The notes under the pieces are model-generated. The model saw only the letters and a list, made by a program, of their open reading frames with translations. It did no database searches and was not told where the DNA came from. A program made the translations under genes and the position numbers. From positions 1 to 52,463 of the forward strand of contig PFCD01000014.1 of the NCBI GenBank assembly GCA_002778455.1: a stretch of DNA of 52,463 bases, given 5' to 3'. Within the stretch, counting starts at the first letter, position 1. Every line of letters starts with the position of its first letter. The DNA comes from Candidatus Micrarchaeota archaeon CG10_big_fil_rev_8_21_14_0_10_45_29 (lineage in GTDB: Archaea > Micrarchaeota > Micrarchaeia > Anstonellales > Anstonellaceae). This document shows positions 1 to 3,418 of this stretch, piece by piece.

Positions 1-398
1 AAAAGCTGGATGGCGGGCACATGCTAAAGCTAATCCAAGGAAAGCACAGCGACGGAAAGCCGTTTTATGAATACAATTACGATTCAGCTTCAAATCTCTG
101 GGTAGTCCAGATAAACCATGAAGACATTCTCATCGCTTCCGGCTTGCTCAAAGATGTTAGAATCCACCGAAATAACGGCTACTACAAGTTTGACGCAAAC
201 CTAATCCCAAACGGGGCGGCATTGCCCAAAGGCAGCAGTGCAGATGACACATTCCGTTATTTCTGGCAAACAGGCGCCTCCTACATCGGTCTCTTCTGGC
301 GCGGCTACGGCGTCGACGGCATCGGCTACTTCAGCCGCGGCGTCTTCGCCTCCGGCGACCTGGGCCTCCGTCTTGGGGTGCTAGTGTATAGTGAGTAG
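1..398 (+). CDS. 3' part of a protein with a DGR-like variable C-terminus (partial)
   Basis: The reading frame is open to the left window edge, so the real start is probably outside; an internal ATG lies at 21. About 132 residues are visible. No family was recognised for the N-terminal part. The last 40 residues are rich in G, Y, F, W, S, R and D and end in the pattern S-x-D-L-G-L-R-L-G-V-L. This resembles the C-type-lectin-fold tails of DGR target proteins, which end in similar G-[FL]-R motifs. Codon use changes sharply at residue 85 (counted from the ATG): 27 of the next 29 codons end in C, while the upstream part has mixed third positions. A hairpin starts just after the stop. It is convergent with uvrA. 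Function as a diversified binding protein is inference. Confidence 0.75.
   Translation, partial: KLDGGHMLKLIQGKHSDGKPFYEYNYDSASNLWVVQINHEDILIASGLLKDVRIHRNNGYYKFDANLIPNGAALPKGSSADDTFRYFWQTGASYIGLFWRGYGVDGIGYFSRGVFASGDLGLRLGVLVYSE
273..380 (+). other. Candidate DGR variable region (NNC codon run)
   Basis: Codons from 273 to 359 are GGC, GCC, TCC, TAC, ATC, GGT, CTC, TTC, TGG, CGC and so on. All but GGT and TGG are NNC, the spectrum expected if AAC codons of a template repeat were randomised at their adenines. The block is followed by an unbiased tail (CTG GGC CTC CGT CTT GGG GTG) in the place where DGRs carry the fixed initiation-of-mutagenic-homology site. No template repeat or reverse transcriptase is present in this window, so they would have to lie outside it. 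Confidence 0.5.
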
Positions 399-400
399 GG

Positions 401-415
401 GCGGGCAAAACCCGC
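401..415 (+). other. Hairpin just after the DGR-like gene
   Basis: GCGGG-CAAAA-CCCGC forms a 5-bp stem with a 5-nt loop, starting 3 nt after the TAG stop. DGR variable regions are often followed by a short hairpin or cruciform that assists retrohoming, which would fit. It could equally be a simple transcription terminator, since T-rich sequence follows at 432-438. Confidence 0.4.
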
Positions 416-595: not shown

Positions 596-3418
596 CTATC
601 CTCCCTTCAAATGCTCTTTCAAATACTGCCCCGTGTAACTCTCCCTGTTTTTGCAAATTTCCTCAGGGGTGCCGCAGGCAACTATTTCCCCTCCCTCATC
701 CCCGCCTTCAGGCCCCAAATCAATAATATAATCAGCTGATTTCACAACATCCAAATTATGCTCTATTACAATTACGGTATTTCCCCTCTCCACAAGCTTG
801 TTTAGCACCTCAAGCAATTTTTGCACATCCGCAAAATGCAAGCCGGTAGTCGGCTCATCCAAAATATAAACTGTTTTTCCTGTGCCTCTTTTTGACAATT
901 CTGATGCCAATTTCACTCTCTGCGCCTCACCGCCGGAAAGAGTTGTGGCGCTCTGCCCCAACTGCACGTAGCCAAGCCCCACCTCATTTAGCACCTGCAA
1001 TTTATTTCTTATTGCAGGCATATTCTCAAAGAATTTAAGCGCCTCCTCCACAGTCATGCAAAGCACGTCAGAAATATTTTTTCCCTTATATCTCACAGAC
1101 AAAGTTTCCTTGTCATACCTTTTTCCATTGCATTCATCGCACTGCACATAAACATCAGGCAAAAAATTCATTTCTATGCGAATAAGCCCGTCGCCCTCGC
1201 AATTCATGCACCTTCCCCCCGGCACGTTAAACGAAAACCTCCCCGGCTGCCACCCCCGCGCGCGAGACACTGGAAGGCGCGAGAATAAATCCCTAATAGC
1301 CGTAAATGCGCCGATATATGTTACAGGGTTGCTGCGCGGAGTCCTGCCGATTGGCGCCTGGTCAATATTCACCACAGAATCCACGCTTCCAATTCCGTTA
1401 ATCGCATCATGCTCCCCTACTTTTATGTTTTTGGCTTTGCTAAACATAAGCATAAGCGCAGGGTGCAAAGTTTCCCCGATAAGGGATGATTTTCCTGAGC
1501 CGGAAACTCCGCAAATTGCGCAAAAAACCCCAAGAGGAAATTTCACATTTATATTTTTCAAATTATTATGCGCGCATCCCTTAACTTCCAGCCAGCCGGA
1601 GGGCTTTCTTCTCTCATTTGGCACAGGGATGCTTCTCTCCCCCCTCAAATAAGCGCCGGTAATTGAATTTTTGCATTTTATTATGTCATCAAGAGAGCCT
1701 GCGCAAACAATTTCCCCGCCATGCCTTCCGGCGCCAGGGCCGATATCAACAATATATTGCGCGGCCCTTATGGTGTCCTCATCATGCTCAACAACAATTA
1801 GCGTATTTTGCAAATCCCTTAAATTAAACAAAGTGTTCAAAAGTTTTGCATTATCCCTCTGGTGCAATCCAATGGACGGCTCATCCAAAACATATAACAC
1901 TCCGCTCAAATTTGCCCCTATCTGCGTAGCAAGCCTAATTCTTTGCGCCTCCCCTCCAGAAAGCGTGCGCGAAACCCTCTCAAGCGCAAGATACCCGAGC
2001 CCCACATTTAGCAAAAATTCCAGCCTGCTTTTTATTTCCTTTAGCACGTTTTTTGCAATTTCCTTTTCCATCCCGTTTAAGGAAAGCTTTGCAAAAAATC
2101 CGTAGCACTCGCTTACCGGGAGGGCGCAAAGCTCTGAAATATTTTTCCCTTCCACAAGCACCGACAATGCCTCTTTTTTAAGCCGCTTTCCGTTGCATGA
2201 AGGGCAGTCAAGCTCTTGCATAAACCGCCCTATTTCCTCACGCCTATAAGAGGAATTGGTTTCCCTGAAAAGCCTCTCCAAATTAGGAATTACTCCCTCA
2301 AATTTATTTTTGCCGCTCCACTCATTATCAGTACTTTTGCTTTTGTAATTAAATTCTATTTCATCCTCGCTTCCGTAAAATATGATGTCCCGGTGCTCTT
2401 TTTTCAAATCTTTAAAAGGCACAGAGAGGCTAAAGCCAAATTTTTTTCCAACAGAGCCGAGCATCTGCATTCTGTATGAGAAAAGCTGGTTATTCCACGG
2501 CTTTATTGCCCCGTCAAGTATTGTTTTGTGCGCATTTGGCACCACAAGCTTTGGGTCTATTTCCATCCTTACTCCAAGCCCATGGCACTGTGCGCAAGCC
2601 CCGAAAGGGGAATTAAATGAAAAAAGCCTTGGCTGAATTTCCGCAAAATTAAACCCGCATGCAGGGCATGCGTTTTTTGTGGAAAATATTTCCTCTTTTT
2701 TGCCAAAGCCGACTTTCACAAGCCCGTCAGCCCTTTGCGCAGCCGTCTGCACCGCCTCGGCTATTCTGTCCCGCTCTCCCCTTTTCTCACTCACCCTATC
2801 AACAACCAAATCAACATCATGCTTTTTATTTTTGTCAATATTTGCAGCATACCTGTCAATTATTACCGCTTCCCCGTCAATTCTTGCGCGCGTAAAGCCC
2901 GAGCGCCCAAGCTCTTCCATCAATTTCTCAAAAGTGCCTTTCTGCCCCCTCACAACAGGCGCGTAAATCGCAATATTTTGCGCCCCGTCCCCCATTATCT
3001 TATCAACTATAGAATCCAGGCTCTGGCTTTCTATTTTTATCCCGCAATCAGGGCAATGCGGCACTCCCACCCTTGCAAATAAAAGCCTTAAATAATCATA
3101 AATTTCGGTGGTAGTGCCAACAGTTGAGCGCGGGTTGGAGCTTCCTCCTTTTTGCTCTATTGAAATTGCCGGCGAGAGCCCCTCAATCAATTCCACATCC
3201 GGCTTTTGCATCAAGCCCAAAAACTGCCTCGCATAAGTTGAGAGCGACTCCACATATCTTCTCTGCCCCTCCGCATAAATGGTGTCAAATGCCAGCGTAG
3301 ACTTGCCGCTGCCGGATATTCCTGTAAAAACAATAAGCTTGTCTTTTGGAATTTGCAAAGAGACATCTTTGAGATTGTGCTCTTTTGCGCCTTTTATATT
3401 AATATAATTTTGAGCCAT
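596..3418 (-). CDS. uvrA: UvrA, excinuclease ABC subunit A
   Basis: 940 residues, the normal length for UvrA, the damage-recognition ATPase of nucleotide excision repair that loads UvrB at lesions. It has two ABC modules. The first Walker A is G-I-S-G-S-G-K-S at residues 33-40, and the second lies in C-G-V-S-G-S-G-K-S. Both ABC signatures (L-S-G-G-E-A-Q-R) are present. Zinc-binding CxxC pairs occur in CPDCG, CPACG, CPSCN and CMNCEGDG/CDECNGK. The start M-A-Q-N-Y-I matches family N-termini. uvrB lies upstream on the same strand, separated by 122 bp. UvrABC genes in archaea are generally thought to come from bacteria. No uvrC is in the window. Confidence 0.97.
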   Translation of the reverse strand: MAQNYINIKGAKEHNLKDVSLQIPKDKLIVFTGISGSGKSTLAFDTIYAEGQRRYVESLSTYARQFLGLMQKPDVELIEGLSPAISIEQKGGSSNPRSTVGTTTEIYDYLRLLFARVGVPHCPDCGIKIESQSLDSIVDKIMGDGAQNIAIYAPVVRGQKGTFEKLMEELGRSGFTRARIDGEAVIIDRYAANIDKNKKHDVDLVVDRVSEKRGERDRIAEAVQTAAQRADGLVKVGFGKKEEIFSTKNACPACGFNFAEIQPRLFSFNSPFGACAQCHGLGVRMEIDPKLVVPNAHKTILDGAIKPWNNQLFSYRMQMLGSVGKKFGFSLSVPFKDLKKEHRDIIFYGSEDEIEFNYKSKSTDNEWSGKNKFEGVIPNLERLFRETNSSYRREEIGRFMQELDCPSCNGKRLKKEALSVLVEGKNISELCALPVSECYGFFAKLSLNGMEKEIAKNVLKEIKSRLEFLLNVGLGYLALERVSRTLSGGEAQRIRLATQIGANLSGVLYVLDEPSIGLHQRDNAKLLNTLFNLRDLQNTLIVVEHDEDTIRAAQYIVDIGPGAGRHGGEIVCAGSLDDIIKCKNSITGAYLRGERSIPVPNERRKPSGWLEVKGCAHNNLKNINVKFPLGVFCAICGVSGSGKSSLIGETLHPALMLMFSKAKNIKVGEHDAINGIGSVDSVVNIDQAPIGRTPRSNPVTYIGAFTAIRDLFSRLPVSRARGWQPGRFSFNVPGGRCMNCEGDGLIRIEMNFLPDVYVQCDECNGKRYDKETLSVRYKGKNISDVLCMTVEEALKFFENMPAIRNKLQVLNEVGLGYVQLGQSATTLSGGEAQRVKLASELSKRGTGKTVYILDEPTTGLHFADVQKLLEVLNKLVERGNTVIVIEHNLDVVKSADYIIDLGPEGGDEGGEIVACGTPEEICKNRESYTGQYLKEHLKGG

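Follow-up and report, generated by a model that had tools for sequence, protein, structure and literature searches.

A contig-edge gene in a small-genome archaeon as a probable target of a diversity-generating retroelement

The contig-edge gene and its C-ending codons

The window, by which we mean the whole 52,463-nucleotide stretch of DNA that was analyzed, begins at base 1 of contig C9 in a 1.146 Mb assembly (G000) of 20 contigs that is 84.65% complete. This genome contains Dph2 (arCOG model) and CDC48, which supports an archaeal origin. The gene of interest, an open frame on the window's left edge, lacks its 5′ part, which lies beyond the contig end. The features in and beside this gene are as follows.

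3–398, + strand: C-terminal 131 aa of a putative target protein of a diversity-generating retroelement (DGR), based on the open frame, paralogues on contig C19, and homologues within DGRs of relatives
291–374, + strand: putative variable repeat (VR) of NNC codons, based on the codon pattern; paralogues A, B, and C vary here solely at codon positions 1 and 2
374–384, + strand: IMH-like site TGGGGTGCTAG at the 3′ end of the VR; GGGGTGCTAG is common to the seven targets identified in this genome
398–419, + strand: hairpin GGGGCGGG-CAAAA-CCCGCaCCC, located where the stop codon ends, from a DNA fold of 381–425
596–3418, – strand: uvrA, a flanking gene outside the DGR (NCBIfam UvrA)

The initial annotation had reported a block of C-ending codons near the 3′ end of this gene. 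Our codon count confirmed that 27 of the 29 codons at 273–359 are NNC codons, the two exceptions being GGT (288) and TGG (297). By contrast, 33 of the 90 codons upstream in the same gene (37%) end in C, and the binomial probability of 27/29 relative to this upstream part is about 3e-10. Among the window's other stop-free frames with 100 aa or more, none surpasses 20/29 codons ending in C, and the neighboring genes for UvrA and UvrB have C at the third position in 18% and 13% of codons, respectively. It had also been argued that each of the NNC codons can be derived from AAC by changes at adenines. This is true, but it holds for any NNC codon and was therefore not counted as evidence. The placement of the variable block at 273–359 needed revision. 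Paralogues A and C conserve the codons at 273–290 (GASYIG), which shifts the variable block to about 291–374. The 5′ boundary of the VR was set at the point where identity to these two paralogues stops.

The VR is terminated by TGGGGT at 374–379. Folding of the DNA at 381–425 gave –11.8 kcal/mol with z = –4.1 and none of 200 shuffles was equally stable, so the hairpin described earlier after the block is real. Thus, the window target has both the IMH-like site and the downstream hairpin looked for in a DGR target, and the hairpin at 398–419 is a candidate retrohoming cruciform.

Annotation of the target with Pfam, NCBIfam, and PHROGs yielded no domain, and archaeal DGR targets that likewise have no known domain have been reported (PMC8144416). 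A search of PDB with the target-family profile gave no sequence match. A single-sequence AF2 model of the window protein, for which no alignment was given, had a pLDDT of 36 and was unusable, so it lends no fold support, for instance for a C-type lectin fold of the VR domain. By analogy, the target may bind variable ligands. Relatives were not found by a peptide-pattern search of genome_contigs and viral_contigs, and a search of viral_contigs for the VR-family pattern was also negative.

Paralogous targets in the same genome

Searching the same genome showed that contig C19 has, at its right end, three tandem homologues (A, B, and C) plus the beginning of a fourth (D). Identity to the window target is 56% for A, 40% for B, and 51% for C. 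Across 93 aligned codons of the A, B, and C gene bodies, 33 first, 21 second, and 58 third positions are variable. By contrast, the 24 codons of the VR have 20 variable sites, with 11 at first positions, nine at second positions, and none at third positions. This difference between VR and body is significant (Fisher p = 2.8e-6), and all of the codon differences in the VRs are nonsynonymous. Because third positions vary at 0/24 codons in the VRs and at 58/93 in the bodies, the VRs were rewritten after the bodies had diverged. Neither point mutation nor selection leaves third positions untouched to this degree, but a template with many AAC-type codons, copied with errors at its adenines, does. 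The codon positions of A, B, and C therefore fit a hypervariable 3′ block that changes only where a template has A; this specificity is judged from the pattern in this genome, and the direct proof from paired template repeats (TRs) and VRs comes from relatives. The window VR differs from those of A, B, and C in length and at non-adenine positions and so needs a separate, unseen template.

A search with the target protein of a relative uncovered additional copies at the start of contig C1, at the start of C7, and in the middle of C17. This genome therefore has at least seven targets (the window gene, A, B, C, and the copies on C1, C7, and C17). The C17 target (L105:7255-8022; C17:38254-39021) is a complete gene of 255 aa, well inside its 75-kb contig, with a VR, an IMH, and a hairpin. 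NNC codons make up 28 of the 34 codons that precede its IMH, and no RT-like gene is among its listed neighbors. In the stretches read, every one of the seven targets has a single GGGGTGCTAG after its VR, and the sequence has no other occurrence. Hairpin strength is variable. The C17 hairpin, which is placed similarly to that of the window gene, has a GCAA loop and z = –5.1; the hairpins at B and C are weak, and DNA folding detected none above shuffle background at A and C1.

The copies at the start of C7 (L017:1-153) and the start of C1 (L104:1-183) share their first 92 bases exactly and diverge beyond them. The IMH of the C7 copy does not continue the reading frame that precedes it, which leads to a stop at the IMH. 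We considered whether this copy carries a two-frame RRPSxRLGVL motif, but comparison with its C1 sister shows an out-of-frame IMH instead.

Target genes are found where the assembly has gaps. Contig C19 stops within one, the first bases of C9, C1, and C7 each lie within one, and runs of N interrupt the target gene bodies on C19. On C19, uvrC adjoins the array, and on C9, uvrA adjoins the window gene. In relatives, uvrA and uvrC are close together; in G006, for example, they are adjacent and on the same strand. Because these two genes are close in relatives and are split here beside targets, the end of C19 and the start of C9 most likely flank one target array between uvrA and uvrC.

Complete retroelements in relatives and the search for a reverse transcriptase

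Besides G000, matches to the target-family profile (A1) were found in eight of 98 related genomes. In G013, G014, and G025 a target of the family and a reverse transcriptase (RT) are on the same contig, and in G070 a TR/VR pair is beside the RT on C81. An adenine-aware scan detected TR/VR pairs of 69–96 bases in relatives, with a similar cassette in G097. In G013, G014, G025, and G070, 14–18 of the mismatches between TR and VR are at template A and three to four are elsewhere. The TRs of relatives end in GAAATG or GGAATG and the VRs mostly in GGGGTG. Targets on other contigs also match the TR, namely one on C79 of G025, and two on C70 and one on C1 of G070. These have 15–18 adenine mismatches and three to five others, so in this lineage remote targets are commonplace. 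Hairpins placed like that of the window gene occur at the VR loci of G025 and G070. An RT profile built from G013, G025, and G014 carries LGNLTSQ and YVDD. Its best match in PDB is 8ub7_A (E = 1.7e-54, over positions 1–345 of 361), which we take to be the DGR RT of a Bordetella phage; group II intron RTs rank below it.

The DGRs of relatives have phage-type integrases within a few kb (L075:1503-2702 and L074:8172-9392), which bear a zinc ribbon at the C terminus. Their location suggests integrative elements.

By the initial annotation's own standard, the lack of a TR and a DGR RT throughout the genome would count against its reading of the locus, and neither was found on the available contigs. 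In this assembly of 20 contigs (84.65% complete), neither the RVT_1 domain nor the RT profile from the relatives' DGRs had a match. Pattern searches of the same assembly for a TR of the A, B, and C VRs and for one of the window VR returned the VRs alone. However, these results are not decisive because the genome is incomplete, the array is broken at contig ends, and relatives have remote targets. The RT and TR may lie in unassembled sequence or at a remote locus, or they may have been lost. Their absence is probably an assembly gap, yet it is possibly real.

Readings of the locus and comparison with known systems

Together, the codon positions of A, B, and C, the complete DGRs of relatives, and TGGGGT at the end of the block support the earlier proposal that the window-edge gene is the target of a DGR, here in a small-genome archaeon. 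We assign this reading a probability of about 0.9. An RT of the DGR clade would copy the TR RNA with errors at adenines. The VR at about 291–374 would then be overwritten by the resulting cDNA, with priming at the GGGGTGCTAG site and assistance from the downstream hairpin. AAC-rich template codons would in this way become random NNC codons in the C-terminal domain, with the randomized residues presumably on a ligand-facing surface. The gene would be one of at least four tandem targets sited between uvrA and uvrC; the genome has three more at other places. We infer that the RT and TR are in the unassembled part of the genome and act in trans, and that the system is still active.

A second possibility is that the targets are fossil or stranded, the RT and TR having been lost or having departed, with the VRs now being fixed paralogues. 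This differs from the reading as a DGR target solely in present activity, and the confidences in the two overlap. It would account for the failure to find an RT or TR in this assembly and for the out-of-frame IMH of the C7 copy. It is also consistent with the integrases near the relatives' DGRs, from which the RT cassette may be mobile, and with the interpretation of RT-less loci as possible fossils in an earlier study (PMC4372165). Against this, some 15% of the genome is absent from the assembly, where contig ends interrupt the array. In addition, the VRs of A, B, and C have no third-position differences compared with 58 in the bodies, so they were rewritten later. On balance we regard fossil targets as somewhat unlikely. 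A further, distinctly doubtful reading is that the archaeon maintains a repertoire of at least seven targets, four or more of which form a single array, but itself encodes neither RT nor TR and relies for diversification on the RT of a transient integrative element or virus acting in trans.

An ordinary family of paralogues, shaped by positive selection and cassette gene conversion with no retroelement involved, would also have tandem copies with conserved bodies and variable tails. But selection alone would not spare synonymous sites in the VR (0/24 third positions) while 58/93 vary in the body, and the homologues in relatives are located in DGRs; this alternative is very improbable. A local artefact of GC3 or codon use, as would arise from a piece of foreign DNA, a chimera at the contig end, or an overlapping gene on the antisense strand, might be suspected of a block less than 400 bases from the contig start, but it is refuted by the same pattern at the mid-contig C17 target (28/34 NNC codons, GGGGTGCTAG, and a GCAA-loop hairpin) and by the codon-position signature of A, B, and C on C19, and we give it virtually no credence.

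Considered as a DGR, the system in this genome is of a known type. Three points are unusual: the large number of targets, the tandem arrangement of some of them, and the failure to find RT or TR in the assembly. As a comparison, the DGRs of G013, G014, G025, and G070 share with it a homologous target family, a VR that follows RYLW...Y.GL, and GGGGTG at most VR 3′ ends, but they differ in having the RT and TR on the contig of a target and in their VR sequences and templates. In sequence, the RT of these relatives is closest to 8ub7 among PDB entries, which links them to the DGR of Bordetella phage BPP-1 (Mtd/bRT). Features shared with BPP-1 are adenine-directed change in a VR at the 3′ end of the target, an IMH, and a downstream hairpin (PMC4372165). 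By contrast, the system described here is cellular, archaeal, and multi-target.

The DUSEL4 Nanoarchaeota DGRs have an IMH of TGGGGT, a template IMH* of TGGAAT at the end of the TR, and a hairpin after the VR, and RT-less target loci in Nanoarchaeota were interpreted as possible fossils (Paul et al. 2015, PMC4372165). In common with them, the present genome has archaeal targets with no known domain, TGGGGT at the VR end, a hairpin following the VR, several targets per genome, and loci that have a target but no RT. It differs in its tandem array of at least four targets flanked by uvrA and uvrC, and in that neither RT nor TR was found in the assembly (84.65% complete). The window hairpin is at and after the stop codon and has a CAAAA loop, whereas in DUSEL4 the hairpin has a GRA loop and is inside the gene.

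These data show that repertoires of DGR targets are recognizable without an RT or template, from paralogue differences that are restricted by codon position together with a shared IMH. Such target loci are overlooked by surveys that start from the RT, and remote targets are known to escape RT-based surveys (Roux et al., PMC8144416). This locus extends the archaeal DGRs, in which targets have no annotated function, by an array of tandem targets located between DNA-repair genes.

There are two minor observations. On C19, a gene for an AAA_5 (MoxR-like) ATPase (L016:12583-13926) is directly upstream of the tandem target array and on the same strand. A link between this ATPase and the targets was rejected; among 19 relatives a homologue occurs in G022 only, and that genome is without the target family. 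In another genome, G081 (L020-L043), 11 matches to the target family are distributed over many small contigs, a large repertoire.
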